From the IMG/VR virus record IMGVR_UViG_3300023178_000189, positions 1 through 29,561 of that record: a stretch of DNA of 29,561 nucleotides; one strand, written 5' to 3'. The position numbers were made by a program, and so were the translations under genes. Below, piece after piece: positions 38 to 27,416 of this stretch. Each line of letters opens with the position of its first letter. The stretch's first letter is position 1. The stretch is from a virus. The notes beneath the pieces are model-generated. The model did not search any database. It was not told the DNA's origin and worked only from the letters and a program-made list of their open reading frames with translations.

Positions 38-352
38 ATGGCTCTCACTCCCGAAAAGAAAGTTAAGAACAAAGTAGTCTCAATCCTAAAGGAAGCAGAC
101 GCCTATTACTTTTTTCCCGCCACGTACGGCATGGGTCGCTCCGGTGTTCCCGATGTCGTTTGCTGTTACTACGGTATGTTCATTGGTATTGAATGCAAGG
201 CCGGTAATAACAAACCAACAGAACTGCAAAAACGAGAGCTTGCTAACATCGAGAAGGCTTGGGGTAAAGCCCTTGTCATAAACGAAAACAACCTGCATGA
301 ACTGGAGGCCACACTTGACTACATACAAATCCGACGAGATACCAATCCCTAA
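38..352 (+). CDS. VRR-NUC domain nuclease
   Basis: This 104-residue protein is a stand-alone PD-(D/E)xK nuclease of the VRR-NUC type, a family of small phage proteins thought to cut branched or damaged DNA. The catalytic pattern is visible: GVPD with Asp39, then I-E-C-K with Glu52 and Lys54, followed by a helix carrying Gln64. The length fits single-domain phage members. ATG 38 is the only start after an in-frame stop at 14-16, although no clear ribosome binding site precedes it. It opens the plus-strand replication arm seen here and overlaps the next gene. It probably works with the polymerase and other nucleases downstream in replication or recombination. The family call is firm; the substrate is unknown. 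Confidence 0.85.
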   Translation: MALTPEKKVKNKVVSILKEADAYYFFPATYGMGRSGVPDVVCCYYGMFIGIECKAGNNKPTELQKRELANIEKAWGKALVINENNLHELEATLDYIQIRRDTNP

Positions 353-943: not shown

Positions 944-2758
944 ATGGATGTTTTGGTTATAGACTTTGAGACGTACTACGACAAACAGTACGGCTTCAAC
1001 AAACTGACAACAGAAGAGTACGTACGCGATGAGCGGTTTGAGGTTATTGGCGTAGCCGTAAAACGTAACCATGAACCTACGCAATGGTTTAGCGGCACAC
1101 TTAAAAAGACGCAAGACTTTTTGGATACGTTTGACTGGGCTAACAGCATAGCTGTGGCGCACAACGCCAAGTTCGATATGGCTGTGCTTAACTGGCTATT
1201 CACAATCCGACCCAAAAAGATAGCAGACACGCTGTCTATGGCGCGGGCAATCCACACCGTAGAAGTCGGGGGTAGCCTATCTGCTCTGAGCGAATACTAC
1301 GAACTGGGCAAAAAAGGTACGGAAGTCGTTGATAACATCGGGAAAAGGCGTTTGGACTTCAGCCCATCAGAGCTTGAACAGTATGGTAAATACTGTATTC
1401 AGGACGTGGAGCTTACTCACAAGCTGTTCCTTATCCTGATGAAGAAGTTGAACTTCAATATATTTGAGCTTGACCTGATTGACCTGACGTTACGAATGTT
1501 CACAGAACCGCGCTTGGTGCTGGACAAGAGCATACTGCAAGCCCATCTGGATGAGATAAAGATGAAAAAGCAGGAGCTTATGGAGAAGGTGCGCCATGAG
1601 GAGACACAGCTACGCAGTAATCAGCAGTTCGCTGATCTGCTTAGGGAGTTTTGTGTAGAGCCACCGATGAAGGTTAGCCCCACTACCGGCAAAGAGACGT
1701 ATGCCTTCGCCAAGACTGACGAGGAGTTCAGGGCCTTGTTAGAGCACGAAAATGACTACGTACAGGCACTGGTTGCTGCAAGGTTGGGAGTCCGGTCTAC
1801 GATAGAAGAGACGCGCACAGAGCGGTTTATTGCGATAGCTGACCGAGGCCCACTGCCCATACCACTACGGTACTACGCAGCGCACACAGGCCGGTGGGGC
1901 GGCGACGAAAAGATCAATATGCAGAACCTGCCCCGTGGCTCTGCTTTGAAGAAGGCTATATGTGCTCCTGAAGGCTACGTATTTATTGACTGTGACTTGT
2001 CTCAGATCGAGGCGCGCACTTTGGCGTGGCTAGCCGAGCAGGACGATTTGGTAGATGCGTTCACCCGAGGGGACGATGTGTACAGCATCATGGCCTCAGA
2101 CATTTATTACAAACCTGTGGATAAGATAACTAAAGAAGAGAGGTTTGTGGGCAAGACCACTATTCTGGGGGCCGGATATGGTATGGGAGCGCAGAAATTT
2201 CAGCTACAGCTTAAGAACTTTGGAGTAGAGCTAGAGCTTGCAGAATGCGAGCGGATCATAAAAGTATATAGGACGGTATACAGACGGATACCAAAGCTTT
2301 GGTATCAGGCGAATGATGCTCTTAAGGCTATAATGAAAAACCACACTTCACCGCTGGGCAAAGATGGCGTACTGCAAGTCACGGGCCATAAGGGCATTGT
2401 TATGCCTAACGGCTTAAGTATAAAGTACCCCAATCTGCGAAGAAGCGACAACGAGATGGTATACGACACTCGGCGGGGCCGAGCGGTTATAGCTAACAGG
2501 ATATACGGAGGGAAGGTCATCGAGAACGTGTGCCAAGCCCTAGCCAGAATAGTGATCGGGGAGCAGTTGTTACGTGTGTCCAAGAGCTATAAAGTGGTAA
2601 TGACTGTACACGATGCGATAGGCTGCATAGCTCCAGAGTCAGAGGCTGAGAGAGCTATGGCGTACGTAGAGGAATGTATGAAGATATGCCCTGAATGGGC
2701 GAAAGGCTTGCCCCTAAACTGTGAAGGGGGCTACGCCAAAAGTTATGGAGAATGTTAG
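944..2758 (+). CDS. polA: DNA polymerase, family A
   Basis: This is the replicative DNA polymerase of the phage, about 604 residues, with an N-terminal 3'-5' exonuclease and a C-terminal family A polymerase domain, and no 5'-3' exonuclease. Exonuclease motifs are DFE (Asp7, Glu9), AHNAKFD and YCIQD. Polymerase motif A is DLSQIEAR with catalytic Asp351, motif B runs from Lys404 through GAGYG, and motif C is VHD with Asp557. The residue equivalent to E. coli Phe762 is Leu408. I start at ATG 944 because AAAGGG and AAGG precede it; the open frame back to 890 overlaps the upstream gene. HMO-2011-type polymerases are reported to carry a DnaJ-like zinc insertion; I see no matching cysteine pairs here. 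It probably acts with the primase-helicase encoded at 8949-11840. Confidence 0.96.
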   Translation: MDVLVIDFETYYDKQYGFNKLTTEEYVRDERFEVIGVAVKRNHEPTQWFSGTLKKTQDFLDTFDWANSIAVAHNAKFDMAVLNWLFTIRPKKIADTLSMARAIHTVEVGGSLSALSEYYELGKKGTEVVDNIGKRRLDFSPSELEQYGKYCIQDVELTHKLFLILMKKLNFNIFELDLIDLTLRMFTEPRLVLDKSILQAHLDEIKMKKQELMEKVRHEETQLRSNQQFADLLREFCVEPPMKVSPTTGKETYAFAKTDEEFRALLEHENDYVQALVAARLGVRSTIEETRTERFIAIADRGPLPIPLRYYAAHTGRWGGDEKINMQNLPRGSALKKAICAPEGYVFIDCDLSQIEARTLAWLAEQDDLVDAFTRGDDVYSIMASDIYYKPVDKITKEERFVGKTTILGAGYGMGAQKFQLQLKNFGVELELAECERIIKVYRTVYRRIPKLWYQANDALKAIMKNHTSPLGKDGVLQVTGHKGIVMPNGLSIKYPNLRRSDNEMVYDTRRGRAVIANRIYGGKVIENVCQALARIVIGEQLLRVSKSYKVVMTVHDAIGCIAPESEAERAMAYVEECMKICPEWAKGLPLNCEGGYAKSYGEC

Positions 2759-3682: not shown

Positions 3683-4087
3683 ATGGTGAGCCAGTTGATG
3701 TGCGTAGCCCTAGCTATCTACTTTGAGGCTAGAGGTGAACCAGACGCTGGGCAGATTGCAGTCGCTCACGTAGTCCGAAACAGAATCGAAGACCCACGCT
3801 ATCCAGATAATGCGTGCGATGTAGTCAAGCAAGGTTACTACTGGAACGGTAACCCGATACGAAACATGTGCCAGTTCAGCTTCTACTGTGATGGCAAACC
3901 GGAAGACCCGCACGACCAGAAGGCTTGGCGCGATGCGTTGTACATAGTGCATCTAAGTGGTTTGATTCCTGATATTACAGGAGGTGCAACGCACTACCAC
4001 AGTACGAAAGTGTTCCCTGAGTGGGCATACACAGGACAAGTCACAGCAAATATACACAAGCATGTATTTTATGCAGGTGTCAGATGA
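3683..4087 (+). CDS. SleB-family cell wall hydrolase
   Basis: This 134-residue protein matches the Hydrolase_2/SleB catalytic domain, which cleaves the glycan strands of peptidoglycan. Family landmarks are YFEARGE with probable catalytic Glu15, AVAHVVRNR (27-34), QFSFYCDG (64-71) and GATHYH (101-106) followed by Trp114. There is no signal peptide or transmembrane segment, so it would need a holin or virion delivery to reach the wall. A strong GGAGGAG site precedes ATG 3683. Its position is odd: it lies among early replication genes on the plus strand, while the other wall enzyme, a GH24 lysozyme, is in the late minus-strand arm. It could be an endolysin, a virion muralytic enzyme or have an early role. 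Confidence 0.85.
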   Translation: MVSQLMCVALAIYFEARGEPDAGQIAVAHVVRNRIEDPRYPDNACDVVKQGYYWNGNPIRNMCQFSFYCDGKPEDPHDQKAWRDALYIVHLSGLIPDITGGATHYHSTKVFPEWAYTGQVTANIHKHVFYAGVR

Positions 4088-4407: not shown

Positions 4408-4811
4408 TGTACGAATACAAAGCAACTATAGTTAAAGTCGTAGACGGAGATACAGTAGATGTTGACATTGATCTTGGTTTTGATACTTGGCTGCACAATC
4501 AGCGGATTCGTCTTGATGGTATTGATACTCCCGAGTGCCGCACAAGAAATAAACAGGAGAAAGCTCATGGACTCCTCGCAAAAGAATACGTTCAAAAGAC
4601 TCTCATCGTGGGAGGAACATATGCGCTCACAACAAAAAAGAAAGGAAAGTTTGGAAGATTTCTGGGCGAGTTCAAAACGGGAAAAGGAACTATTACGCAA
4701 CTCCTTGTCAAAAAACGATTGGCGGTTCCGTACACTGGGCAAAATAAAGCGGAGATAGCAGCCGCGCACGAAGCCAACCGAATAGCACTAATAGAAGAAG
4801 GTAAATTATGA
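4407..4811 (+). CDS. Staphylococcal-nuclease-like (SNase) protein
   Basis: This 134-residue protein has the thermonuclease (SNase) fold signature, a calcium-dependent phosphodiesterase of DNA and RNA. Visible are VVDGDTVDVD (residues 11-20), RLDGIDTPE with Arg35, Asp40, Thr41 and Glu43, and KFGRFLG with Arg84, matching the S. aureus catalytic residues Arg35, Asp40, Thr41, Glu43 and Arg87. No signal peptide is present, so it would act inside the cell. I choose GTG 4407, which overlaps the previous stop by one base and follows GAGGA at 4396-4400; the open frame back to 4365 is inside the neighbouring gene. A role in host DNA degradation or phage recombination is plausible. Confidence 0.88.
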   Translation: MYEYKATIVKVVDGDTVDVDIDLGFDTWLHNQRIRLDGIDTPECRTRNKQEKAHGLLAKEYVQKTLIVGGTYALTTKKKGKFGRFLGEFKTGKGTITQLLVKKRLAVPYTGQNKAEIAAAHEANRIALIEEGKL

Positions 4812-5473
4812 CAGCGTGGTCTTACAGTAGTATCAAAACTTTTGAACAATGCCCTAAAAAATATTACCACTTGAAGGTAGCTAAGGATGTTAAAGACTAC
4901 GGCAACGCAGCTACCCGATACGGCAACGAAGTACACAAAGCAGCCGAAAACTATATTAAGTCCGGGGAAGAAGTGCCTAAAAAGTTTTCTTTCCTTAACC
5001 GCTTACTAGATTCGCTTAACAGCTTAGAAGGCGAAAAACATTGCGAATTAAAATTCGGTGTTGCTTTTGATGGCGAAGAATATAAGCCAACTAAGTTTAT
5101 GGCTAAGGATGTTTGGTTTCGCGGCATCGTAGACTTGCTCATAGTAAATGAAGACAAGGCTCTGATTATTGACTACAAGACAGGCAAGAACGCTAAGTAC
5201 GCTGACACTACGCAGTTAGACATAATGGCTGCGGCTACGTTTACACACTTCCCAGAGGTACAGGAGATTAAGTCTGCGTTGGTATATGTAATCAGTAACG
5301 ACTTTATAAGTAAGAAACACAGCAGAAAACTGCATAAATCATACTACGCTACGTTTGAGGAACCGCTACAGAGGTTAGCTGTTGCCGAAGAAAACAACGT
5401 CTGGAATGCAAAAAGCGGGCCGCTCTGCGGCTTTTGCCCAGTAAAATCATGTGAACACTATCGTGGGAGATAA
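4808..5473 (+). CDS. RecB/Cas4-like PD-(D/E)xK exonuclease
   Basis: This 221-residue protein belongs to the RecB/AddB/Cas4-like nuclease group. It opens with the SYSSIKTFEQCPKKYY motif, followed by His43, Glu80, GIVD with Asp109, IIDYKTGK with Asp122 and Lys124, and Gln136 in the QL motif. Four cysteines have the spacing of the iron-sulphur staple of AddB and Cas4: Cys15 near the N-terminus and Cys207, Cys210 and Cys215 at the C-terminus. The active site is complete. It overlaps the SNase gene by four bases, and the basic HNH-like gene follows two bases after its end. It probably resects DNA ends during recombination or breaks down host DNA. Confidence 0.85.
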   Translation: MTAWSYSSIKTFEQCPKKYYHLKVAKDVKDYGNAATRYGNEVHKAAENYIKSGEEVPKKFSFLNRLLDSLNSLEGEKHCELKFGVAFDGEEYKPTKFMAKDVWFRGIVDLLIVNEDKALIIDYKTGKNAKYADTTQLDIMAAATFTHFPEVQEIKSALVYVISNDFISKKHSRKLHKSYYATFEEPLQRLAVAEENNVWNAKSGPLCGFCPVKSCEHYRGR

Positions 5474-5475
5474 CG

Positions 5476-5766
5476 ATGGCAGAGAAGAAACGTAACTACA
5501 AAAAAGAATACGAGAACTACCAAGGCACTGAAGAGCAGAAAAAGAAACGTGCGAAGCGTAATGCTGCTCGGCGCAAAGCAATGCGAGAAGGCAAAGTAAA
5601 GAAAGGTGACGGCAAAGACGTAGCGCACAAAAAAGCTCTGGACAAAGGCGGCAAAAATTCTGACGGCGTTAGAGTAGAAAGCGCTAGCCGGAACCGATCC
5701 TTTAAACGAGACTCAAAGGGTAACTTAGTTTCTGAAACCAGCAAGCGCGAGCGGAAGCGCAAATGA
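5476..5766 (+). CDS. Very basic HNH-like protein
   Basis: This 96-residue protein is extremely rich in Lys and Arg. The C-terminal half resembles a compact or degenerate HNH motif: DVAHKK with Asp48 and His51, then GGKNS with Asn61, and SRNRSF with Asn73. It lacks the cysteines of zinc-bearing HNH proteins. The N-terminal half (YQGTEEQKKKRAKRNAARR) is probably a charged helix that binds nucleic acid. It sits between the RecB-like nuclease and the SNF2 helicase and overlaps the helicase start as ATGA. A nuclease or DNA-binding cofactor is likely; catalysis is uncertain. Confidence 0.6.
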   Translation: MAEKKRNYKKEYENYQGTEEQKKKRAKRNAARRKAMREGKVKKGDGKDVAHKKALDKGGKNSDGVRVESASRNRSFKRDSKGNLVSETSKRERKRK

Positions 5767-7316
5767 TACTAGTAGATAATAAGGAGTTGGTCTTAAGGAC
5801 TAAACGACCACATTTAGTTGCTGAAAAAATACAGAACTGCGAAGTAACAGAAGAAGAAAATGGCGTATTCAAGGTGTCAGTAAACTGGGGCCTAGAAGAG
5901 TGCCAACAGTTAGCAGAGCTTAAAGTAAAAAATATACCGTCACCGATAGAGCGTGACTACGAGTGGGTAGGTAAGTACAAACCTTTTGACCACCAAAAAG
6001 TTACAGCTAGTTTCTTAACTGTACACAAACGAGCTTTTTGTTTTAACGAGCAGGGGACTGGTAAAACTGCCTCTGTCATCTGGGCAGCCGACTATCTTAT
6101 GAAGCTCGGGATCATAAAGCGCGTGCTTGTGATCTGCCCTTTGTCGATTATGAAGTCCGCATGGCAGCAAGACTTGTTTACATTCGCTATGCACCGTAGC
6201 TGTTCCGTGGCGCACGGCACGTCTAGCCAGCGGAAAAAGATAATTGAAGCTGGGTGCGAGTTTGTAATTATAAACTTCGACGGCGTAGGTGTAGTCAAAG
6301 ATGAAATAAAGAACGGCGGCTTCGACTTAGTTGTGGTAGATGAAGCCAATGCGTATAAAAACGTACAGACAAACCGATGGAAAATCTTGTACGACATTAT
6401 GAGGAACGTCGATTGGTTGTGGATGCTTACAGGCACACCAGCGGCACAGTCTCCGGTGGATGCGTTTGGGCTTGGTAAACTAGTCAACCCAGAAGGTACA
6501 CCAAAATACTTCGGGCAGTTCCGAGACATGGTAATGTTTAAGCTTTCGCAGTATATATGGAAACCTAAAGTTACTGCTGATAAGACCGTACACCAAATAC
6601 TACAACCAGCGATCCGGTTTGAAAAAGAACAATGCCTAGACTTGCCGCCCGTAACTTATGTAGAAAGGGATGCTCCGCTTACAAAGCAGCAAGAAAAGTA
6701 TTACACCCTGCTAAAGAAACGCATGATTATGGAGGCGGACGGCGAACAGGTTACTTCTGTTAACGCTGCTACTAACTTAAACAAACTACTACAAATCTCT
6801 GGCGGTGCTGTATATACGGACGATGGAGAAGTCATAGAGTTCGATGTAAAGAATAGGCTTAAGGTAATACACGAAGTAATAGAAGAGTCTAGTCACAAAG
6901 TTCTGGTTTTCGTACCGTTTACACACACCATAGAACTACTGCATGAGTTCCTAACCCAGAGCAAAATAAGCAGCGAAATAATTTCCGGCAAAGTGTCAGT
7001 TAATAAACGAGCTGAAATAATTAAACAGTTTCAAGAAACAGATCGGCCGCAAGTGCTAATTATCCAGCCCCAAGCCGCTTCTCACGGCTTAACTTTGACT
7101 GCGGCTAACACCGTCATTTGGTATGCCCCAGTTACGAGCGTAGAAACTTACCTTCAGGCAAATGCCCGCATAAATAGGCCCAGCCAGCACAACCCGATGA
7201 CTATAGTACACGTCTGCGGGAGTGAGGTTGAGACACGCCTATACTATATGTTGAGGTCGAACATTGATAACCATAACAAGATAGTCGATCTCTACAAACA
7301 AGAAATAATTGGTTGA
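5763..7316 (+). CDS. SNF2-type DEAD-like helicase/translocase
   Basis: This 517-residue superfamily 2 ATPase has two RecA-like lobes. Motif I is EQGTGKT (96-102), motif II is DEAN (193-196) rather than DEAH or DEAD, motif III is LTGTP (222-226), motif V lies in HGLTLTAANTVIWY (441-454) and motif VI is QANARINRPSQ (465-475) with arginine fingers. The overall pattern is SNF2-like. Phage SNF2 helicases are often found beside family A polymerases and are thought to remodel forks or displace proteins. The ATG overlaps the previous stop as ATGA. Its stop codon shares bases with the -35 box of the next promoter. The family call is firm; the biological role is inferred. Confidence 0.9.
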   Translation: MILVDNKELVLRTKRPHLVAEKIQNCEVTEEENGVFKVSVNWGLEECQQLAELKVKNIPSPIERDYEWVGKYKPFDHQKVTASFLTVHKRAFCFNEQGTGKTASVIWAADYLMKLGIIKRVLVICPLSIMKSAWQQDLFTFAMHRSCSVAHGTSSQRKKIIEAGCEFVIINFDGVGVVKDEIKNGGFDLVVVDEANAYKNVQTNRWKILYDIMRNVDWLWMLTGTPAAQSPVDAFGLGKLVNPEGTPKYFGQFRDMVMFKLSQYIWKPKVTADKTVHQILQPAIRFEKEQCLDLPPVTYVERDAPLTKQQEKYYTLLKKRMIMEADGEQVTSVNAATNLNKLLQISGGAVYTDDGEVIEFDVKNRLKVIHEVIEESSHKVLVFVPFTHTIELLHEFLTQSKISSEIISGKVSVNKRAEIIKQFQETDRPQVLIIQPQAASHGLTLTAANTVIWYAPVTSVETYLQANARINRPSQHNPMTIVHVCGSEVETRLYYMLRSNIDNHNKIVDLYKQEIIG

Positions 7317-7775: not shown

Positions 7776-8714
7776 ATGTCAAATGAAGTATCAATTTTCG
7801 GCAACGATAATGCCGTAGCTGCGCCGCGCAACCGTAAGAGTTCACTGGCGCAGAAGTTAAGCAGCCAGAACACGATTTACAGCAGAAGAATTAAAACCAA
7901 TGCAAGGGGCACATTCACAAAGCTTATTAACGGTAAGCCTGTGGGGGAACCAATCCGCGACGAGTTTGAGGCTATTGTGGTTAACATGTTACCCAGTGTG
8001 TCTCGTAACTACTACAAAGAAGAATATGACGCCAAGAAAGAAGAAGAAGGCGTCGTTACTTTGCCGGTATGTTGGTCGCACGCAGCGGATAAACCCGCAG
8101 AAGATGCGCCTGAGCCACAAAGCGCTAACTGCGTCAACTGCCCGCAAAACCAGCCCGGCTCTGGACAAGGGCAAAGCAAAGCTTGCAGGTTCAAGCGTAG
8201 CCTAGCGATCATGCTAGCGGGCGATAAATCAGGTGACGTATATCAGATCAACATCCCTGCTAAGTCATTGTTCGGTAAGAGCGCAGGTAACAAGCATCCG
8301 TTTGAAGCATACGTTAAGTATCTGCTTTCTAATGGCGAAGCACCCGACACGGTGGTTACGAAGATAGCTTATGATCCTGATGCCGCTGGCATGGAGCTTT
8401 ACTTTGCGCCTGTGCGCCGTGTCACCGACGAAGAATATGACTTGATTGAAGCAGCGTTAGATAAGCCTGAGACCGAGAGATACGTGAAGATCAGTGTTGG
8501 ACAAAACGATCTTGGTCAGCAGAAGGCGCTAGAGAGCAAGCCGGAAGAACCAAAGATTGAACGCAGCGAAGAACCGGAAGAGGTCGAAGTTGAGGTCGAA
8601 GTAGTCGAAGAACCACAGAAGCGGGCGAAAAAGAAAAAAGAAGAACCAATCGCTGATGACGAGTCTGGTGATCTTGCTGACGTAATCAGTGCGTGGGGTA
8701 GCGACGACCAATGA
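7776..8714 (+). CDS. Candidate ssDNA-binding protein
   Basis: This 312-residue protein looks like a phage single-stranded DNA-binding protein. Four cysteines (Cys99, Cys119, Cys122, Cys137) could bind zinc inside a central domain, as in T4 gp32. The C-terminal 60 residues are strongly acidic with a short lysine patch and end in a tail (DVISAWGSDDQ) like those SSBs use to recruit partners. The N-terminus is basic. It lies between the coiled-coil gene and the HTH and primase-helicase genes, with AGGAG before ATG 7776. No clear OB-fold signature can be read by eye, so the assignment rests on layout and context. Confidence 0.5.
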   Translation: MSNEVSIFGNDNAVAAPRNRKSSLAQKLSSQNTIYSRRIKTNARGTFTKLINGKPVGEPIRDEFEAIVVNMLPSVSRNYYKEEYDAKKEEEGVVTLPVCWSHAADKPAEDAPEPQSANCVNCPQNQPGSGQGQSKACRFKRSLAIMLAGDKSGDVYQINIPAKSLFGKSAGNKHPFEAYVKYLLSNGEAPDTVVTKIAYDPDAAGMELYFAPVRRVTDEEYDLIEAALDKPETERYVKISVGQNDLGQQKALESKPEEPKIERSEEPEEVEVEVEVVEEPQKRAKKKKEEPIADDESGDLADVISAWGSDDQ

Positions 8715-8944
8715 GTTACGGCTATACAGTAAAACTAGTCTCGCTCAACAAGTCTGCAAGTAACGAATCTCTAGGCGTGAAGCTAGGTAGAGAGTGCATT
8801 AAATACAATGTGCCTGTATCGCATGTGGCTAATCGTCTAGGGGTCTCCAGACAAACGGTATATAACTGGTTCACCGGCGAATCCCTACCTAATGAGCAAA
8901 CTAGGAAAAGCATCGAAAAGTTTATAAACAAAATACAGCGGTAG
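8711..8944 (+). CDS. Helix-turn-helix DNA-binding protein
   Basis: This 77-residue protein contains a clear HTH at about residues 34-58 (VPVSHVANRLGVSRQTVYNWF), in the style of XRE or Cro proteins, followed by a short helix. It probably binds an operator and regulates phage transcription, or marks DNA for the primase-helicase whose gene starts four bases after its end. Its ATG overlaps the previous stop as ATGA. No integrase or antagonistic repressor is in the window, so it does not by itself indicate a temperate lifestyle. Confidence 0.8.
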   Translation: MSYGYTVKLVSLNKSASNESLGVKLGRECIKYNVPVSHVANRLGVSRQTVYNWFTGESLPNEQTRKSIEKFINKIQR

Positions 8945-8948
8945 GATT

Positions 8949-11840
8949 ATGAAATACCTTGACCTGCTCGATCATGTGCAGCCAGACAACGGCTGTTACT
9001 GCGTTCTAGGGATAGGGTCATTCGTTAAACAAGAGTTAGTAGCTACACGGGAAGAATTTACCGAAGTTGTAGATACGTATTTAGCCGAAAAAAGAGATGT
9101 TTATTTCGGCGTTGCAAAGTTCAAGTCTGTAGATGGAGGTCGCAAAAAACAAGACGTACAGTCACTCAAAGCTTTCTGGTTGGACATAGATTGCGGTGAA
9201 GGCAAAGCTAAGATCAACGAGAAGACTGGGATACCTGATGGTTATGTAGATCAGGCTACGGGTTTTAAGAAGCTGCGAGAATTTGTAGAGACTGTAGGTT
9301 TACCTCCACCAACAATAGTCAATTCTGGGCGCGGCCTACACGTATACTGGGCGCTTACTTCTGAGGTGACTAAAGAGCAGTGGGAGCCTGTAGGCAAGAG
9401 ACTTAACGAACTATGTAAGAAACAAGAGTTTTACGTTGATCCGAGCGTCTTTGAAGTAGCACGGGTGCTTAGAGTGCCCGGCACTCTTAACTTTAAGGAT
9501 GATCCCCCTAAGCCCGTAGAGATAATGGGTGAGCTACGGCCACCTGTTGATTTCGATGAGCTTAAAGACATACTGGGTGTCAAAGATAAGCAACCTGCGG
9601 TAGAAGTAGAGCCTAGCAGGAAGTCTGCTTTGCGCGACAAACTCATGGAGAACATCCAGAGTAACTTCGCAAAGATCATGACAGCAAGCGCCAAAGGCTC
9701 TGGGTGCAAGCAGCTTCTTTCTTGTTACATGGACAGAAAAACACTATCTGAACCGAGGTGGTGGAATGCTCTGTCTGTGGCAGCTAACTGCGCGGATAGG
9801 GATACGGCGATACATATATTGTCCAAAGACTATCCGGACTACACACCCGAAGAAGTAAACAACAAAGTAAAGCATATAACTGGGCCGCACAGTTGCGAGG
9901 AGTTTGAAAAGAATAACTCTGGCGGATGCGAAGGATGCCCGCACAGAGGCAAGATAAAAGGCCCGATACAGTTAGGCAATACTTTTGTGGCTGCTACTGA
10001 TAGCGACATACCAGATGCGCCGGAAGAAGCCGAAGAAGAGGACGAAGCAGAACCAACGAAGCCTTACTACACCCACCCGTATTACAGGGGCAAGAATGGT
10101 GGCATATACAGGATAGACGACCTGAACGATGAGGAAGCAAAACCTGTACTTGTTTACGAGTATGACTTGTACGTTAAAAAGCGTATGACTGACCCTGTAA
10201 ATGGCGATCTAGTGGTGTTCGTGCTGCATACTCCAAAGGATGGCGTGCGTGAGTTTGATATAGAAAATTCAACCATAGCGCAGCCTATGCGTATACGAGA
10301 GGCGCTAGCCAAAGAAGGCGTGCTAGCAACAAACAAACAATTCGAGCTGATTGTGGCTTATGTGATCCACGCAGTTGTCGAAAACCAAAAGAAGAGGAAA
10401 GCGGAACTTATGAGAAGGCAATTTGGGTGGCACGATGGTGACACTAAATTTGTTGTAGGGGATATGGAGATAACTGTAGACGGTGTATACCACAGTCCTC
10501 CTTCTTCTATAACTAAATCTCTTGTGCCTCACTTTGAACCACAAGGCACACTAGCTAAGTGGAAAGAAGTGTTTGCTCTGTACGGGATGCCTAGTATGGA
10601 GATACAAGCTTTCGGGGCTTTGACTGGCTTTGGCGCACCTTTGTTAAAGTTTACGGGGCAAAAAGGTGCGATCATTAACCTGATCCACAGCAACGCAGGT
10701 ACAGGTAAAACTACGATCTTGCGTATGGCTAACAGTATCTACGGTGATCCTGAAAAATTACTGGGCACAGTAGATGATACAAAAACCGCTAAGATTACGA
10801 AGCTAGGTATACTGAACAATATAGTCAACACCGTAGACGAAATAACCAACACAAGGGGGGAAGAGTTTTCAGAGCTTGTCTATGCGTTCTCGCAGGGTAA
10901 AGGCAAAGAAAAGAGCGAGCGGCACGAAACGAAGCTACGTATGAATACGACTACGTGGAACACGCCTACGCTAACTAGCTCCAACGCTTCGATGTACGAC
11001 AAGCTGGCAGCCATAAAGAAACAAGCAGACGGAGAAGTAATGCGTCTACTTGAGTTCAGAATTGATTACACCGACGAAAGCCTAATATCCACAGAGAAAG
11101 GCAAAGAAATGTTTGACCACCAGTTAAACGCAAACTATGGCCACGCTATCGTTCCTTTTATTCAGTTTGTTCTGGCAAACAAAGAAGAAGTGCTTGCTAC
11201 GTTACAGAGCGTACAGAAAAAGATAGACAAAGACTTAAAATTTACGTCTAGGGAGAGAAATTGGTCTGCTGTTGTATCGGCTAATATCACTGGTGGTTTG
11301 ATAGCTGAGCGCATAGGTTTGTTTACCGACGAAGAAGGAGATAAGACTTGGGACATGCTGCGTGTGTATAAAGCCGTACTGAGAGAATTGTCAGACATGC
11401 GGACTAAGACAACAGCACCTGTAGCCAATGCACCTGCAACTGTAAGTGACTATATACACAGAAACATAAACAATATGCTGGTGATAAACGACAACGCAGA
11501 TAAACGCACTCACTTAGTTAGCGAACCTATCGTTGAGCCTAAGCACAATCTGTACATACGGTACGAACCAGACACTAAGTTAATGTATATATCCGTAACC
11601 TCCTTCAAGAAGGACTGTGCAGAGTACCAAGCAGAGTATAGCGATACTCTAAACCAACTAAAGAAAATGGGTATATGTCTGGGTACGGGCAACAAGCGGC
11701 TGTCCAAAGGCACAAACATACCGTCCGCTAGTGTTCGCTGCGTAATCTTGAACTGCGATCACTCAGAGTTTATATCTATGGAAGGCATACTTCCGGACGA
11801 ACTTAAAGATGAAAGTGGAGAAGGTGACGTACGAGATTGA
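8949..11840 (+). CDS. Bifunctional primase-helicase (AEP primase + P-loop ATPase)
   Basis: This 963-residue replication protein combines an archaeo-eukaryotic-type primase with a helicase-like ATPase. The primase half has LDID (Asp79, Asp81), SGRGLHVYW (126-134, His131) and RVPGTLNFK (175-183). A cysteine group (Cys316, Cys327, Cys330 in GCEGCPHRGKI) follows and probably binds zinc, then an acidic linker (about 350-370). The ATPase half has a Walker A at NAGTGKTT (582-589, Lys587) and Walker B VDEI (Asp630, Glu631), resembling DUF927/DUF5906 or D5-like helicases. It would prime and unwind DNA for the family A polymerase. Its last 32 bases overlap the next small gene. Confidence 0.9.
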   Translation: MKYLDLLDHVQPDNGCYCVLGIGSFVKQELVATREEFTEVVDTYLAEKRDVYFGVAKFKSVDGGRKKQDVQSLKAFWLDIDCGEGKAKINEKTGIPDGYVDQATGFKKLREFVETVGLPPPTIVNSGRGLHVYWALTSEVTKEQWEPVGKRLNELCKKQEFYVDPSVFEVARVLRVPGTLNFKDDPPKPVEIMGELRPPVDFDELKDILGVKDKQPAVEVEPSRKSALRDKLMENIQSNFAKIMTASAKGSGCKQLLSCYMDRKTLSEPRWWNALSVAANCADRDTAIHILSKDYPDYTPEEVNNKVKHITGPHSCEEFEKNNSGGCEGCPHRGKIKGPIQLGNTFVAATDSDIPDAPEEAEEEDEAEPTKPYYTHPYYRGKNGGIYRIDDLNDEEAKPVLVYEYDLYVKKRMTDPVNGDLVVFVLHTPKDGVREFDIENSTIAQPMRIREALAKEGVLATNKQFELIVAYVIHAVVENQKKRKAELMRRQFGWHDGDTKFVVGDMEITVDGVYHSPPSSITKSLVPHFEPQGTLAKWKEVFALYGMPSMEIQAFGALTGFGAPLLKFTGQKGAIINLIHSNAGTGKTTILRMANSIYGDPEKLLGTVDDTKTAKITKLGILNNIVNTVDEITNTRGEEFSELVYAFSQGKGKEKSERHETKLRMNTTTWNTPTLTSSNASMYDKLAAIKKQADGEVMRLLEFRIDYTDESLISTEKGKEMFDHQLNANYGHAIVPFIQFVLANKEEVLATLQSVQKKIDKDLKFTSRERNWSAVVSANITGGLIAERIGLFTDEEGDKTWDMLRVYKAVLRELSDMRTKTTAPVANAPATVSDYIHRNINNMLVINDNADKRTHLVSEPIVEPKHNLYIRYEPDTKLMYISVTSFKKDCAEYQAEYSDTLNQLKKMGICLGTGNKRLSKGTNIPSASVRCVILNCDHSEFISMEGILPDELKDESGEGDVRD

Positions 11841-12006
11841 TTGGAAGAAGTTCAAGGTGGGGTATTCGTTTTTTATACCCTGCCTTAACCCCAAAAAGTC
11901 TAGGCGAAACATATTAAAAGTAGTACACAGACTTAAGTACAAAGTTGTACACAAAGTAGTAATAGAAGACGGAGTGCGCGGCGTCCGTGTATGGAGGGTA
12001 AGCTAG
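11809..12006 (+). CDS. Small basic protein at arm junction
   Basis: This 65-residue protein is basic, with a predicted beta-rich core (VGYSFFIPCLNPKKSRRNI) and a GVRGVRVWRV end that looks conserved-type. It has no named family that I recognise. It starts inside the 3' end of the primase-helicase gene and is the last plus-strand gene. Its TAG stop (12004-12006) shares two bases with the TAG stop of the giant minus-strand gene. The perfect inverted repeat GGGTAT/ATACCC (11860-11880) lies within its coding sequence and may be a coincidence of codons. Weaker GTG starts exist at 11815 and 11824. Confidence 0.6.
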   Translation: MKVEKVTYEIDWKKFKVGYSFFIPCLNPKKSRRNILKVVHRLKYKVVHKVVIEDGVRGVRVWRVS

Positions 12007-15000
12007 TCTGGTATTGCTGGCAGCCTGTTCGGCACTGGGTCAGACCTAGAATCTCGGATTATCGGGTATAGGTATGGAGCTTCTTTTGAGTTCAGGAACA
12101 AACCGTCAGTGCTGATAGCTGCCCTTTTCATTCTGGTAGTTACAGAACGAGTTAAGTCATCTGGGCTTATAGCATCGTAGAAATACATGTAATTGTACTT
12201 TGCTACTTCTTTTTGCATGTCTAGCAGTTCGGCTCTGGCTTTCTTAGCTTCTTCGCTCTCTGGGCCAGCACTCATATTAGCGTTAACCAACCTGTCCGCT
12301 GCTTCGGCGTAGTCTTGATACAGAGTGTTCCTTGCTTCAGTCCTTTCTGCCTGTAAGCGCTTAATTATAAAGGTGGACTCTTGGCTCTCAGCCACTTCTG
12401 TAGAACCAAAACCTATAGTCTGACCCAGAAGCTTCCAAGCATCATAATAGTCCGGCGGTCTGATCTCAGTAATGCCGTCCCTAGTCTTGAAGCCTTGTGT
12501 GCCTAGACGCAGAGCCTCCATAGGCTCTTTAATGAAGCCGGGAGCCATAGCCTCAAAGCCACGCATAACGTCACCGTCGAGTATAAAATCGAAGCCTCTA
12601 GCAGTGTTTCTAGCTACACCGCCAAATGCACCAAGAGTGAAGTCGAACATGCCGTTAACCCAAGCATCTTCCGTAGTTTCTCTCGGCACAGAATCTCTGA
12701 ACCACAAGCCATCCAGTGCCAACGAAGGTTGCGCGTTCCAGTCGGTGAGTGCAGAAATTGGCCCTAGTTCTACTGCTCGTGCAAGCAGTTCTGCGGTCTC
12801 TGGTTCCAAGCCAAACTGTTTGGCTAGTCCGCTCTCTGCACCAAAGTATCTAGGTATAAGGTTGTTGCGTATGTACAAGTCAATGCTACGTAAGCCTAGT
12901 GGATTACCGGCATCATCTACGTCATAAAAATAGTCAGCGTCTTCATCATCATAGTCGGGGCGTAAGAACTCTCGCAGTCCGTCCATGAAGGCTACAGCAG
13001 CAGTGTAACCGAGCATGCCAGTAGCTCCCCCAAAGACAAACCCCATCCCCATCGTATCCCAAAACTTGGTAGCAGCTTTCTTTTTCTCTTCTCTGGTTAA
13101 CCCTGAAGCGGCATACGCTTTGTAGAAGTTCTGTACTATGTAGCCCAAAGCTTGAAACTGGTAACTCTTGAACTGATACGCCATACGACCCCACCACTGT
13201 TTTGCGTAGCGAGGCTTATTGTATGACGAGTAATCAAACATACCTTCAAAGGTCAACTTGATTGCTTTTTCTGCGGCTGCTTCTATAGCAGAATCGCCAG
13301 TGACCCCTGCCTTCAATTGTTTTTCATACTCAAGCTCAAAAGCCGACATATAAAAAACTTCACGGCTCGTTCTCTCCAAGTGATGTAGTGCGCCTGTCAT
13401 TACGGAGTAAGTAAATTTTGTAGCGCGGCTAGCCCGCATTCTGGTACGACTGCCTGTGGCTCTTATTGCAGACTCTTCTGGTTCGGCTCTACCAGTTATG
13501 TCGTGTATGCGGGTAGCTATAAATACGTTACGCATATCGGCGTAATCCCACGCCTTCTGTAGAGCATTTTTAATAGGGCTGCCTTTTACGTATTTAGAAT
13601 TACGTATCGCAGGCTCGCCTCTTTCGTCCAGTATTTCTCCGTTTTCACCCGAGTCAGTAGAACCTAGACCTCGGAAGGTCATAAAGTTCTTCATGTATTT
13701 GCCTGCCATCAAAGACGTTTTAGCTGCACCGTACTCCGCGTGTAACGTGCCATAACCAAAGATGGCTAGTTGGGTAGGCTGTATGATCGCAGAGCGCATA
13801 GAGCTTAGTAGGAATAAGAAACCAGTCTTAGTGCCTGCTCTTGAGACGTAATCTAAAACAGACTCGACGCTGTTTAACTTAGGAGGGCTTAACTCGTTAG
13901 TTGCTCGCAGCTCAGCTTCGTTAAGCAAAGCATTCTTTTTCGCAAACTCTGTGTATCTTTTTTGTACGTCCCTAGCAGTTTCGCCTATTATGGTAGGCTG
14001 CTCTCGCTGCTCTCCTTCTATTTGCGCTCTACCTTCGCTTATCTGGTTGCGTATAACTCTGGAGTATTTTGCTCTGGAAGTCTGATTTATATTGGCTAGC
14101 TTCGTAGTGATAAAAGCTCGCAATGCGTCATTGCTAAAACCTGCTCTATTTTTACGGCGTATGTATGCTCTACGCACGTTACCTTCTGGCAGGGACAATA
14201 AATACATCTGATATATTGTATCTTTTAATGTGTTTACGCCTTCTTTACCTAAAGTCTGAATATCGTCTATCTGCTTAAATATTTCTTGCAGTTTCAGGCT
14301 GTCGCTAGTTATTTGCTTCCGCAAATCTTTAGCCGGATTTTCAAAAGATTCCGGCTGCGGTCGAGCAGAACTAGGGTTGTCCGCCATGTAATCTGCTATA
14401 AATCTGTTTGCCTCTGCCCTAGTTTCAAATGGATACAAAGCGCCATTTTTGCCGGGCATACGCACACCGTATTTACCCGGACGGGTCAAGGGGACATAGA
14501 CTCTCAGCTTACGTGCTTCTTGGTAGTCTCTAACTATGTTAGCCAGCAACTTGCCTTTTGGCGAATTAGTGTCTTGCTCTGTGCCGGGTATGTTCGGGTC
14601 TTTTCTAACATTGTTCACCAACAATGCTTGCTGTTCGTTCAGGTCATTCTCATATTCTTGCAGAGTTTGGGCGTAAATTTCTAAACCAGTAGCACCGTTT
14701 TTGCTGGCTTTAAGCTCTTCGTATATTTTAAATACGTCTTCTATTTCTTCTTCTCTTTTTGCTATTTCCCTTCCCAGACGATCCATCTCTGCGATCTCGT
14801 CATTAGTAGGGCTAGGGTTTTTGTTTAACTCTTGTAGTTCAAACTTTAACCCACGCAGTGTTGTGTCAGTATTTTTTGACTGCTTCAAAGATATAGTGCG
14901 TTTTGTCTTGGTACTGTAAATAAGCACGTCAAACACTGAAGAGAAATGCAGCAGGTCTTCTAAAATTGCTCCTCCTTCTGTGTTAGCAAGAATATATTTT

Positions 15001-18000
15001 TCCCAACGGTCAACTTGCTTCGACAGCATGTCTAGCTTTTTACTTCGGTATACAGTCAGCTCATTTTGAGTTTTGTTTAGTTTCCCAACTACAGACATGT
15101 TGAAGCCATCAGCCAGCTTCGTAAGCATAGTGTTAGTAAACGCGCCCAACACACTTTGCATTGTGTTTACGTCCATAGCGTCAGAAAACGCCAAGAAGTC
15201 TCGGACACCTTTTTCTGGGTCTCTAACCGCGTTTATTATGCCTTTTGACTGACCTAAAAACTTACGCAACGTGTTTTGCTGCGCCTGCAACTTCTGCACC
15301 TTAGAAAGCTTTTCTACTTGCTTCTTGGCTTGCACCACTTGGCTTGCACGTTTTGGCCTAGTGCGTACCTGTTCTTCTGCAAGACGGCCAGTCAAGTCGA
15401 TTAGCTGCTCGAACGCGCTTATGTCTCTGCTGGGCCTACCCAACATCCGACGAATTATGTCTACAAAGTTAGAGAATGCTGTTTTAATAGCTCCGAGTTG
15501 GTATTTGTTTACAGGAGCCATGTTGAGCAACATCTCTTGAAGCGGTTGCTCGGTAATGCCATAGCTAAGAAATTCAGCTATGTCAGTAAAATTATCTGTA
15601 CTTTTAGCTAGACGCTGCAATGCAGGTGATGCACGATCTGACGCAAGTAAGTTTTGGTACTGTACCCCTACTTGGTGCATCAACAGAAGCGCGTCATCTA
15701 TTGCAGCTTGTGCTTCTTGGGATATAAGCAGACCTTGTTTAAAGCTTGATATTATATCCAGCGTACTGGCATGGATCATTTCATGTAATACAGTGCGAGC
15801 GTCCAAGCCCTCAACTGAATCTATGTACATGGTGTTAGTTTCTGGGTCGAAAAGACCAGCAGAAATTTGCTTTCCGTTCTCGTCTACCCAATATTGAAGC
15901 AAGTCATCCGGTACTTGTTCCGAGTTTTCTATAAGCTGAAACTTCGTAGCTAATTTTTTTGCTATCGGCCTAAACAGTGCAGCTAAGCCTCTCTCAAAGT
16001 CTGTCCTGTTAGTGTCAGCGTTAATTACCTCCATTGCTTCTTCCGCAGTTGTGACCTCTTCTATCGGGCCATCAATCATCTCTTTGCGCGGAACTAACGG
16101 AGCATATTCGCCGGGTACTATTTCGTTTCTTACTGTTTTGTTTTCTAGTGGAATTATGCCTGTAGGAGCTTTAGCCTTAGCTCTTTTTCGCGCTTCGGCC
16201 AGCATCTCTGGTGTGAGCCTTGCATCCTGTAAAGCTCTTAAAGCAGCAGTGTGGGCCGCTCTACCTTCTAACCTAGAGTTGTTTGCTATGTTGATGACAT
16301 CAGCTAGCTGGTCTATGGTTTTGTCTTGCAGTGCGGCAATTTCGTTTTGTATCTCGTTATAAGCAATTCGCTGCTTGTTCGCATCCCTACGGGCGCGGCG
16401 TGCAGATTCCTCTGGGTTAGCGCCTAGTATTCGATATGACTGTATTCTTCTTTGTACTCTGGCTTCATATTGAGCATCAGGGTCAGCGTCGTACTCATTA
16501 AAAGCCTCTTGGTTGGCAAAGAACGGAACATAACCTTTTTTACTTAATATTTTCTGTACGCCCCTATCCAGAGAGTTTGTAAGTTTCTCTACAGTGCGTA
16601 TCTCAGATTTTCTCTGGTTGTCCTGTCTTTTTTGCAGCTCATTAACTCTGGCAGTAGCCTCCGGAGCGCGCTCTACGGGGGGCCTACCAACTTGAGCTTC
16701 CGGTGCTTCTTCTATGCCGGGCAGCCCGATTTGTTCTTGGTCTGGAGTTATTGCCGCTGCTTTAGGCTTTTGTTCTGGTGTGCTACCGGCAAGAGACAAA
16801 GACTCATCTATGTTTTCATTCTCTATTGTGTCTAAGTCTTTTTGTGTATCTGTTTCTATCCCCGCCATCCATGCTTCGTAATCATCCGGAGTCGGTTCAT
16901 CCCTGACTTCTTCTTTTTGTGCTGGCGCAGCTTCATCTTGGTTAGTATCTATTCCACCTATTTCTGCTGTGTCAGTTTCTGTGTCTACTTCAGGCGCTGA
17001 TTCAGTTCTGGCAAGAGTCAGTCCTTCTCCGCGCACACCTCTGACGTACATCTCAGCCGCTTCTTGTCCGTACTGGGCAACTAAACGACCGATCTTTTCA
17101 GGGTCTATTTCTTGCCCTTGGTCTGCATCTACTTCATCTGCTATCGCATCAAACCAAACAGGAGCCTCAATGTCTCCTTCTTCGTCAGTTGCAACTTCTT
17201 CCGCTACGACTTCTTCTGGTTGCGCCTCTACTTCTAAGCCTTCTGTTTCCAACGCTCTTCTTTCGGCTTCTTGTTCTGCTCGCGCAGTGTCCGCAACCTG
17301 CGCCTCGACCGCACCTACACCGCCACCGATAATGCCACCGACAATGCCTTCCAATGCAGCTTGGCCTACTACGCCACGACTAAGTGGTACGTCCACGCCT
17401 TCTCTTTGCAGAGCTAGGTTCTGGGCAAAGCGTTCTTGGGCTGCTTGTATGGCTTCTGGTGCGCCCTCTCGCCCAGCGGCTTCAACCATGTTCCTAACAA
17501 CGCCACGACTTAGCCCATCTTGCATTAGGCGCTTACCAAATTCAGTTTTAAGCACTGTTTCTGGCACACCAAACCTAGATGCCAACCAGCCGAATGCACC
17601 ACCCAGCGCGATCATGTCTAAGTTATCGCCTGTATAAGACTGTGCCTGCGTTGCAATTTCTCTAGCTTCTTGCTCGCTAAGACCTTGCTTGAGCATTTCG
17701 TCATTAACAGTGCTGAATACGGCGTCTTTTACTAGGCCAACACCAGAACCAACACCATACCCAGCCACACCAACTGTACCGCCATACACAGCGGCAGCGA
17801 GAGCAGGGATAATTGTGCCTACGCCTTGTGCAGCAAAGTCTAATGGGGAAGTAGCAAACGCTCTGAGAGCGGCTTTGACTTGCGCTCCTGCGCCTTTGTC
17901 CTCGGCTTCTTGCATGATCCTAGCAACTTCTTGCTGGTCTGCTTTAGCCTGTGCAGAGAGAAGTCCGTCTATATACTCTTCGACTCCGCTTAGTTGTCGA

Positions 18001-18317
18001 GAGACAGGATTATCTGCACCAAAGATATCTGTGATTAGCTTCGTACCAGTAACTACGCCACTGGCAAGATTCAGAGGTATGTCAGCAGCCTCCCGCAATA
18101 TATTGGACTGTACGGGAGGAGGTTCTTGGGCTGGGGGTTCTACCTGCACAGGGTCAAACTGATCGAAGAAATTACCATCAACCGTTTGTACAGGCTCTTG
18201 TTCTGCGGGAGGTTGAGCCTCGTCTAACCCAGTGTCAAACTGGTCAAAGAAATTATCTTGAGCGACATTTTCTTTTGCAGTATCAAACTGGTCAAAAAAG
18301 TTTTGTTGGTCTGCCAT
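12003..18317 (-). CDS. Giant polyvalent protein (zincin, PLxRFG-like)
   Basis: This 2104-residue protein is probably carried in the virion and ejected with the DNA. The motif NFFDQFD occurs three times in the first 56 residues (6-12, 22-28, 49-55). A glycine-rich hydrophobic stretch (about 162-196) may insert into membrane. A long acidic, disordered-looking region (about 330-600) follows. A zincin-like site HEMIH lies at 845-849 in TVLHEMIHAS. A PLxRFG-like segment, PLTRPGKY, lies at 1276-1283, and the HHLERTSREV...QFKSYQFQ part after residue 1645 resembles the C-terminal region of PLxRFG polyvalent proteins. Another hydrophobic segment follows near 1750-1775. Polyvalent proteins of other mobile elements enter the new host and act on its defences; that role is inferred here. 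It is the last gene of the late arm. Confidence 0.75.
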   Translation of the reverse strand: MADQQNFFDQFDTAKENVAQDNFFDQFDTGLDEAQPPAEQEPVQTVDGNFFDQFDPVQVEPPAQEPPPVQSNILREAADIPLNLASGVVTGTKLITDIFGADNPVSRQLSGVEEYIDGLLSAQAKADQQEVARIMQEAEDKGAGAQVKAALRAFATSPLDFAAQGVGTIIPALAAAVYGGTVGVAGYGVGSGVGLVKDAVFSTVNDEMLKQGLSEQEAREIATQAQSYTGDNLDMIALGGAFGWLASRFGVPETVLKTEFGKRLMQDGLSRGVVRNMVEAAGREGAPEAIQAAQERFAQNLALQREGVDVPLSRGVVGQAALEGIVGGIIGGGVGAVEAQVADTARAEQEAERRALETEGLEVEAQPEEVVAEEVATDEEGDIEAPVWFDAIADEVDADQGQEIDPEKIGRLVAQYGQEAAEMYVRGVRGEGLTLARTESAPEVDTETDTAEIGGIDTNQDEAAPAQKEEVRDEPTPDDYEAWMAGIETDTQKDLDTIENENIDESLSLAGSTPEQKPKAAAITPDQEQIGLPGIEEAPEAQVGRPPVERAPEATARVNELQKRQDNQRKSEIRTVEKLTNSLDRGVQKILSKKGYVPFFANQEAFNEYDADPDAQYEARVQRRIQSYRILGANPEESARRARRDANKQRIAYNEIQNEIAALQDKTIDQLADVINIANNSRLEGRAAHTAALRALQDARLTPEMLAEARKRAKAKAPTGIIPLENKTVRNEIVPGEYAPLVPRKEMIDGPIEEVTTAEEAMEVINADTNRTDFERGLAALFRPIAKKLATKFQLIENSEQVPDDLLQYWVDENGKQISAGLFDPETNTMYIDSVEGLDARTVLHEMIHASTLDIISSFKQGLLISQEAQAAIDDALLLMHQVGVQYQNLLASDRASPALQRLAKSTDNFTDIAEFLSYGITEQPLQEMLLNMAPVNKYQLGAIKTAFSNFVDIIRRMLGRPSRDISAFEQLIDLTGRLAEEQVRTRPKRASQVVQAKKQVEKLSKVQKLQAQQNTLRKFLGQSKGIINAVRDPEKGVRDFLAFSDAMDVNTMQSVLGAFTNTMLTKLADGFNMSVVGKLNKTQNELTVYRSKKLDMLSKQVDRWEKYILANTEGGAILEDLLHFSSVFDVLIYSTKTKRTISLKQSKNTDTTLRGLKFELQELNKNPSPTNDEIAEMDRLGREIAKREEEIEDVFKIYEELKASKNGATGLEIYAQTLQEYENDLNEQQALLVNNVRKDPNIPGTEQDTNSPKGKLLANIVRDYQEARKLRVYVPLTRPGKYGVRMPGKNGALYPFETRAEANRFIADYMADNPSSARPQPESFENPAKDLRKQITSDSLKLQEIFKQIDDIQTLGKEGVNTLKDTIYQMYLLSLPEGNVRRAYIRRKNRAGFSNDALRAFITTKLANINQTSRAKYSRVIRNQISEGRAQIEGEQREQPTIIGETARDVQKRYTEFAKKNALLNEAELRATNELSPPKLNSVESVLDYVSRAGTKTGFLFLLSSMRSAIIQPTQLAIFGYGTLHAEYGAAKTSLMAGKYMKNFMTFRGLGSTDSGENGEILDERGEPAIRNSKYVKGSPIKNALQKAWDYADMRNVFIATRIHDITGRAEPEESAIRATGSRTRMRASRATKFTYSVMTGALHHLERTSREVFYMSAFELEYEKQLKAGVTGDSAIEAAAEKAIKLTFEGMFDYSSYNKPRYAKQWWGRMAYQFKSYQFQALGYIVQNFYKAYAASGLTREEKKKAATKFWDTMGMGFVFGGATGMLGYTAAVAFMDGLREFLRPDYDDEDADYFYDVDDAGNPLGLRSIDLYIRNNLIPRYFGAESGLAKQFGLEPETAELLARAVELGPISALTDWNAQPSLALDGLWFRDSVPRETTEDAWVNGMFDFTLGAFGGVARNTARGFDFILDGDVMRGFEAMAPGFIKEPMEALRLGTQGFKTRDGITEIRPPDYYDAWKLLGQTIGFGSTEVAESQESTFIIKRLQAERTEARNTLYQDYAEAADRLVNANMSAGPESEEAKKARAELLDMQKEVAKYNYMYFYDAISPDDLTRSVTTRMKRAAISTDGLFLNSKEAPYLYPIIRDSRSDPVPNRLPAIPD
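18153..18306 (-). repeat. Three NFFDQFD-coding repeats
   Basis: Three short related DNA segments at about 18286-18302, 18238-18254 and 18157-18173 encode the identical heptapeptide NFFDQFD at the N-terminus of the giant protein. They are separated by variable proline-, glutamate- and glutamine-rich linkers, and third-position differences between the copies suggest selection on the peptide and not a recent DNA duplication. Confidence 0.8.
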
Positions 18318-26929: not shown

Positions 26930-26936
26930 CTAAACC

Positions 26937-27377: not shown

Positions 27378-27416
27378 CAACGAAACAACAGTATTAGTTG
27401 GACGAGTAACTTTATA

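Follow-up and report, generated by a model that had tools for sequence, protein, structure and literature searches.

In viral metagenomics, residue 762 (Escherichia coli numbering) of viral family A DNA polymerase (PolA) serves as a marker from which phage lifestyle and mode of replication are deduced. According to two virioplankton studies (Nasko 2018, PMC6302109; Keown 2022, PMC9069017), PolA with leucine at this position lacks an accompanying RNR and occurs with helicases of the SNF2, RecB-like, or UvrD kind, and a link to temperate phages has been proposed; the lifestyle claim of Schmidt 2014 is given here as later papers report it. The association of Leu762 with SNF2 and the lack of RNR is already published, and the leucine alone is not new; a preliminary description of the DNA analyzed here cited a known link of this residue to lifestyle and to partner helicases and primases. 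PolA is typed by residue 762 in those papers; term searches of both papers and of a 2026 preprint on phage T7 (PMC13228545) returned neither position 734 nor position 845, bar noise from the reference lists. In the sections of that preprint available to us, the Leu enzyme of T7 (Y526L) loses 97% of its activity, leaves the phage not viable, and is too weak for fidelity measurement, the fidelity of Y526F is unchanged, and natural Leu enzymes are said to need compensatory mutations, of which those sections name none. Because T7 Y526L is nearly inactive, natural Leu enzymes must differ elsewhere.

The DNA analyzed here (the window) spans positions 1 to 29,561 of IMG/VR virus record IMGVR_UViG_3300023178_000189. 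With the virioplankton Leu762 groups, as described in the accessible text of PMC6302109 and PMC9069017, it has in common the residue itself, an SNF2 neighbor, a RecB-family nuclease gene, and the lack of a recognized RNR. The Kochitakasuvirus phages KPP25 and CRPAP1904 and Rhizobium phage RHph_TM3_14A carry the same Tyr734, Leu762, and Glu845 as the window polymerase, and KPP25 and RHph_TM3_14A resemble the window's clade in having an SNF2 helicase and no integrase match, but all three share only 34 to 36% protein identity with the window and keep Glu883 (HDE) where it has Ala. A set of temperate phages of Gram-positive hosts (StauST398-2, Rosalind, Adelaide, and phi-SsuNJ2_rum), together with Casjensviridae/Guernseyvirinae, have the same remodeled pocket and, in those searched, SNF2; they differ in occupying a tree branch separate from the window, and the Gram-positive ones in carrying integrases. 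The family A polymerases of E. coli, Taq, Bst, and T7 share the fold and motifs A, B, and C with the window protein, and the contacts described for KlenTaq serve as the map, but these enzymes have Phe or Tyr762, His734, and Asn845 in place of Leu, Tyr, and Glu, as read from the alignments for E. coli and T7.

Leucine at position 762 of a family A polymerase

The gene at 944 to 2758 (+), read from an ATG at 944 (604 amino acids; the list of open reading frames also gives a TTG start at 890), encodes a genuine family A polymerase that also has a 3'-5' exonuclease domain. Profile searches matched DNA_pol_A (PF00476; 116.3 bits versus a cut-off of 34.3) and the 3'-5' exonuclease domain (PF01612; 40.4 bits versus 23.6), and the AlphaFold2 model (pLDDT 89.5, pTM 0.85) has the Klenow fragment, 1d8y, as its top fold match (E, 2.4e-20). 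The catalytic residues Asp705, Arg754, Lys758, Tyr766, and Asp882 of E. coli correspond to Asp351, Arg400, Lys404, Tyr412, and Asp557, all of which are kept. The relevant sites are as follows:

962 to 1405 (+): exonuclease residues Asp7, Glu9, Asp78, Tyr150, and Asp154 (columns 424, 497, and 501 aligned to E. coli)
1994 to 2014 (+): motif A, Asp351-Leu-Ser-Gln-Ile-Glu356-Ala357 (E. coli Asp705...Glu710; Leu711 replaced by Ala)
2081 to 2083 (+): Tyr380, equivalent to E. coli 734
2141 to 2182 (+): motif B, Arg400...Lys404-Thr-Thr-Ile-Leu408-Gly-Ala-Gly411-Tyr412-Gly (Leu408, 762; Gly411, 765)
2522 to 2548 (+): Glu527-Asn528-Val-Cys-Gln531...Arg535 (Asn845 replaced by Glu, 846 by Asn, and 853 by Arg; Gln849 kept)
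2609 to 2617 (+): motif C, His556-Asp557-Ala558 (Glu883 replaced by Ala; HDA, not HDE)

We take Asp7, Glu9, Asp78, Tyr150, and Asp154 to be the exonuclease motifs; judged by these residues, the proofreading site appears intact and the enzyme is probably proofreading. The segment from Glu527-Asn528 to Arg535 is invariant in the 23 rows of an alignment subset (A6).

Nucleotides 2153 to 2182 (AAG ACC ACT ATT CTG GGG GCC GGA TAT GGT) encode KTTILGAGYG, running from Lys404 to Tyr412-Gly. In a pairwise HMMER alignment, this motif B falls on RRSAKAINFGLIYG of the E. coli Klenow fragment, and MAFFT alignments of 107 sequences, of 169 representatives, and of 377 loci all set Leu408 at Phe762, Lys404 at Lys758, and Tyr412 at Tyr766. 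The reading of this residue as leucine in the preliminary description was thereby confirmed: no other residue of the protein falls at 762 in these alignments. Leucine is also present at 762 in all 80 relatives from viral contigs, whose polymerases are 55 to 100% identical to that of the window (two, L002 and L003, are 100% identical), and Leu408 is therefore neither chance nor a sequencing slip.

A remodeled pocket around Leu762

Polymerases from 355 loci were aligned; the HMM recovered 323 of them, which were reduced to 169 representatives by clustering at 75% identity. The 32 loci missed by the HMM are T7-like and were recovered in the later alignment of 377 loci (379 minus two chance matches, L364 and L368). 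Among the 169 representatives, position 734 is Tyr in 84/84 with Leu762 and His in 85/85 with Phe or Tyr762, while position 845 is Glu in 82, Gln in 1, and Asn in 1 of the former and Asn in 84 of the latter, with one gap; columns 846, 853, 765, and 711 likewise split the two sets. Over the 377 loci, the states at 734/762/845 were Tyr/Leu/Glu (183), His/Phe/Asn (88), His/Tyr/Asn (79), and His/Leu/Asn (21), followed by Tyr/Leu/Gln (1; Rollin), Tyr/Leu/Asn (1; BcepNY3), and gapped (4). All of these are counts of sequences, not of events, because many of the rows, especially the T7-like ones, are closely related and class-specific queries were used to collect the sets. Tyr734 was accompanied by Leu762 in 185/185 rows.

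On this basis, we define a remodeled-pocket class (Tyr734, Leu762, Glu845) and a simple-Leu762 class (His734, Leu762, Asn845). The window polymerase, with Tyr380, Leu408, and Glu527 all present, is a member of the first class and, having Tyr380 and Glu527, lies outside the second. The group itself is known; the new element is that its Leu762 polymerases come with two kinds of pocket architecture, the window polymerase having the rebuilt one. A comparison with solved structures returned no near relative of the remodeled-pocket class, the best matches being E. coli, Bst, and Taq. In the accessible text of PMC7155079, the triphosphate contacts of KlenTaq are Lys663, Arg659, and His639 (equivalent to 758, 754, and 734), and its minor-groove water contacts are Asn750, Gln754, and Glu615 (845, 849, and 710). 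Since these KlenTaq counterparts contact the incoming nucleotide, two of the linked changes (734 and 845) lie at the nucleotide. In open-licence PubMed Central, we found no paper on Klenow Glu883/E883A, on Taq N750/F667, or on the combination of H734, F762, R754, and K758.

The change of Glu883 to Ala was considered as a further partner of Leu762 and rejected: HDE is retained in other Leu762 phages, many of those with Phe762 show HDA or HDS, and the column changes state 23 times on the tree. Every one of the 80 relatives has HDA or HDS as its motif C, whereas KPP25 and most other remodeled-pocket phages keep HDE; HDA/HDS is a subclade trait. Separately, two simple-Leu polymerases (L360 and L377) have Ile at 766, where the other 19 have Tyr.

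Mixed forms and descent

On a tree built without columns 734, 762, 845, and 883, all Leu762 rows then sampled fell on one side of one branch. As this tree could not tell coupling from descent, mixed forms were searched for. A scan of viral contigs for His734 with Leu762 returned 23 stretches, of which 21 are true polymerases, all with Asn845 and an ordinary Phe-type backbone; since the search pattern itself required His734 and Leu762, Asn845 alone counts as independent evidence in these 21. The reverse form, Tyr734 with Phe762, gave no stretch in viral contigs and 11 in prokaryote genome contigs, none of them a polymerase. This absence is strong, though incomplete: the scan patterns assume one spacing and, among representatives of the concordant kinds, match no more than 27 of 84 with Leu and 35 of 75 with Phe.

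The initial rule that Leu762 requires Tyr734 and Glu845, drawn from the 84/84 agreement at 734 in the first, class-specific sample, was broken by the 21 His734/Leu762/Asn845 polymerases: in general, Tyr734 and Glu845 are not needed for Leu762. The rule is kept one way only, in that all Tyr734 rows have Leu762. On a tree that includes the mixed forms (127 rows, thinned, with several long branches), Leu762 changes five times and Tyr734 once. Simple-Leu rows account for four of the five Leu762 changes, two of which are forced by well-supported branches, and the remodeled pocket sits on a single branch (SH-aLRT, 99). Because this pocket arose once on the trees, the linked columns may reflect shared descent rather than coupling.

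Replication partners

The preliminary description had named an SNF2 helicase and an AEP primase-helicase as partners of the polymerase, and both are present in the window, along with two nucleases:

38 to 352 (+): small Hjc/VRR-NUC-like nuclease, upstream of the polymerase gene (phrog_93 endonuclease, E 3.6e-16; PF01870 below cut-off)
4808 to 5473 (+): PD-(D/E)XK exonuclease, RecB-family/DUF2800-like (PF12705, 66.7 bits; PF10926, 25.7 bits; phrog_69 exonuclease)
5763 to 7316 (+): SNF2-type helicase/translocase, SF2 (PF00176, 69.8 bits; PF00271, 63.9 bits; phrog_62 DNA helicase, E 9e-102)
8949 to 11840 (+): primase-helicase with DUF927 ATPase (PF06048, 91.7 bits; phrog_2478 polymerase/primase; phrog_8841 primase/helicase)

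The last of these contains the AEP-like motifs LDID (9180 to 9191) and SGRGLHVYW (9324 to 9350), which we take to be marks of an archaeo-eukaryotic primase, and AGTGKTT (10695 to 10715) in the DUF927 ATPase. Between the SNF2 and primase genes lies a 312-amino-acid protein (7776 to 8714, +) with an acidic tail that matches only PHROGs of unknown function (phrog_27714 and phrog_23155); its position suggests a single-strand binding role. A small helix-turn-helix protein (8711 to 8944, +; HTH_3 over cut-off) directly precedes the primase gene.

Helicase types were compared in 34 remodeled-class records, namely, 17 of the 80 clade viral contigs (those >26 kb) and 17 of the 19 remodeled-pocket isolates. 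SNF2 was found in 33 of the 34, the exception being a 44-kb contig (L007) with a polymerase 68% identical to that of the window, and DnaB_C exceeded its cut-off in none of the 34, the window likewise having none. By comparison, the simple-Leu records had SNF2 in 6/21 and DnaB_C in 16/21 (DnaB in 13 of 15 clusters at 75%), a difference with Fisher P values of 6e-8 for SNF2 and 7e-10 for DnaB, uncorrected for kinship. Among the five Phe/Tyr references, DnaB without SNF2 is the pattern in four, and SNF2 without DnaB occurs in one, Gordonia phage Yarn (Phe762). Given the split between the two Leu762 classes and the case of Yarn, helicase type goes with the pocket class and the lineage of the polymerase, exceptions aside, rather than with residue 762. 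RNR was matched neither in the window nor in any of the 34 remodeled-class records by a profile that also missed the annotated RNR of HMO-2011. Among the open reading frames scanned in the window, which is a fragment, no SF1 helicase (UvrD or RecB-like) was recognized; the RecB-family PD-(D/E)XK nuclease is present.

Outside the replication genes, a 2,104-amino-acid protein (12003 to 18317, -), which has PHROG matches to DarB-like antirestriction proteins, virion RNA polymerase, and large phage proteins of unknown function, is probably virion associated or ejected. Two different cell-wall lysis-type genes are present, a Hydrolase_2 gene in the replication half (3683 to 4087, +) and an endolysin-like gene in the structural half (phrog_7; 26937 to 27380, -), and an esterase/lipase-like protein (phrog_21992; 27644 to 28330, -) is encoded near the latter.

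Lifestyle

Integrases were searched for in 48 of the 80 window-clade contigs (13 of them >30 kb) and in 25 reference records. Neither tyrosine integrase nor serine recombinase was found in any of the 48 contigs, and tyrosine integrase also had no match in the 29.6-kb window or in the 21 simple-Leu records; in the references, tyrosine integrase was found in 4/25 and serine recombinase in 3/25. All seven positives are among the 19 remodeled-pocket references and are phages of Gram-positive hosts, leaving 12 of these 19 isolates with no match to either family. A clean terminal repeat was absent from all 10 long contigs examined, although the two ends of one have a 126-base word in common, and the window has no end repeat either; because of this, the absence of an integrase may be a lack in fragments and is weak in any one record. 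The accessible text on CRPAP1904 (PMC13340246), a relative of KPP25 with a polymerase of the same class, describes a lytic phage with a latent period of about 40 min and a burst size of about 109. The reverse case is HMO-2011, a Phe762 phage with an annotated phage integrase. Leu762 alone does not predict lifestyle, and the suggestion that the window phage might be temperate runs counter to the integrase results for the 48 contigs and 12 isolates and to the lytic CRPAP1904; the phage would be expected to lead a mainly lytic life.

In passing, the record of RHph_TM3_14A (L082) annotates a "putative integrase" at 24610 to 27693, and neither integrase family matches anywhere in that record; by place and size, this gene may be the primase-helicase.

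Speed and fidelity

According to the accessible sections of PMC11666352, Taq F667M and F667A work at 0.13 and 0.02 of the wild-type rate and reach 13,759 and 42,014 nucleotides per error, versus 5,986 for the wild type. Taq H639Y, which has Tyr at 734 as in the window, has a rate of 0.15 and lower fidelity (2,707 versus 5,986 nucleotides per error; same source). The window enzyme differs at both positions, and the F667 and H639Y changes shift fidelity in opposite directions; single-mutant data cannot be summed to predict this enzyme, and the earlier expectation of a slower, more accurate polymerase, an extrapolation from Taq single mutants, is not supported.

Discussion

The explanation to which we give roughly even chances is that the window phage has its own replicative polymerase, in which Leu408 is one part of a pocket rebuilt in one phage clade and Tyr380 and Glu527 compensate for it. 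This family A enzyme, probably proofreading, would work with the AEP primase-helicase and the SNF2 translocase in place of a DnaB/gp4 ring helicase. Within a single large phage clade, its pocket would have been rebuilt in one piece, presumably with loss of the aromatic ring at 762, replacement of His734 by Tyr at the triphosphate contact, and replacement of Asn845 by Glu beside the minor groove, along with Asn846, Arg853, Gly765, and Ala711. Tyr380, where the triphosphate is contacted, and Glu527, close to the minor groove and the steric gate, may then take over part of the nucleotide positioning done by Phe/Tyr762, and such a take-over would make the enzyme competent, not crippled. The residues, the family and domains, the neighboring genes, the one-way rule, the division of helicases by class, and the absence of integrase matches in the window's clade are observed; the compensation step, enzyme speed and fidelity, and a mainly lytic lifestyle are inferred. 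Counting against this explanation are, above all, the single branch, and further the 21 Leu762 polymerases with His734 and Asn845, Rollin and BcepNY3 without Glu845, the harm done by His-to-Tyr alone in Taq, and the contig (L007) without SNF2.

Some of the same observations favor simple hitch-hiking, in which 734, 762, 845, and other positions were fixed in one clade ancestor and inherited together without any compensation, the helicase link being an inherited replication module. All changes do lie on one branch, other columns (e.g., 792, 825, 837, and 853) divide the classes just as cleanly, and 21 viral polymerases have Leu762 without the accompanying changes. On the other hand, 734 and 845 are nucleotide contact positions in KlenTaq, and Tyr734 goes with Leu762 in 185/185 rows across phages with hosts in the Pseudomonadota, Bacteroidota, Bacillota, and Actinomycetota, whereas 883 changed 23 times. 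We consider hitch-hiking plausible but less likely than compensation. The reading in the preliminary description, by which Leu762 by itself lowers the speed and raises the accuracy of the enzyme and points to a phage that grows slowly or is temperate, fits the link to temperate phages, to SNF2, UvrD, and RecB helicases, and to the lack of RNR in the published sections cited above, the slower and more accurate Taq F667 mutants, and the integrases of 7 of the 19 remodeled-pocket isolates. It is nevertheless improbable, given the 48 clade contigs and 12 isolates without an integrase match, the lytic CRPAP1904 with its burst size of about 109, the different helicases of the two Leu762 classes, and, in the accessible mutant data, the lower fidelity of Taq H639Y, the unchanged fidelity of T7 Y526F, and a T7 Y526L that could not be measured. 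From that description, the residue, the SNF2 and primase-helicase partners, and the fact that a link has been published are supported; the dependence of helicase type on 762 alone, the temperate lifestyle, and the slower, more accurate enzyme are not. An accessory repair polymerase in a phage that depends on the host replicase, residue 762 then having little weight, would be compatible with a window that is a fragment without an end repeat, but the gene is part of an intact replication module, alongside those for the primase-helicase, the SNF2 protein, and the nucleases, and SNF2 co-occurs with the polymerase class in 33 of 34 records, making this very unlikely.

Extending the compensation explanation to viruses at large, we tentatively propose, with somewhat less than even confidence, that viral Leu762 represents two solutions. 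One would be a coordinated rebuild, in which the aromatic side chain has effectively been shifted from the fingers helix (762) to 734, Glu845 re-tunes the minor-groove/steric-gate network, and Leu762 is obligatory, accompanied by SNF2 and, in the window, by the AEP primase; the other would be plain Leu762 in an ordinary pocket, mostly with DnaB. The rebuild would supply the compensation that the failure of T7 Y526L implies, and virome typing by 762 only would merge unlike replisomes.

Should Leu762 indeed occur in two architectures that differ in their helicases, typing by 734 (His or Tyr) would serve better than typing by 762, and it would be unsafe to deduce lifestyle from Leu762 alone. Provided that they are functionally coupled to Leu762, as we infer, Tyr734 and Glu845 would be concrete candidates for the compensatory changes that, in the available sections of the 2026 T7 preprint (PMC13228545), natural Leu enzymes are said to need.
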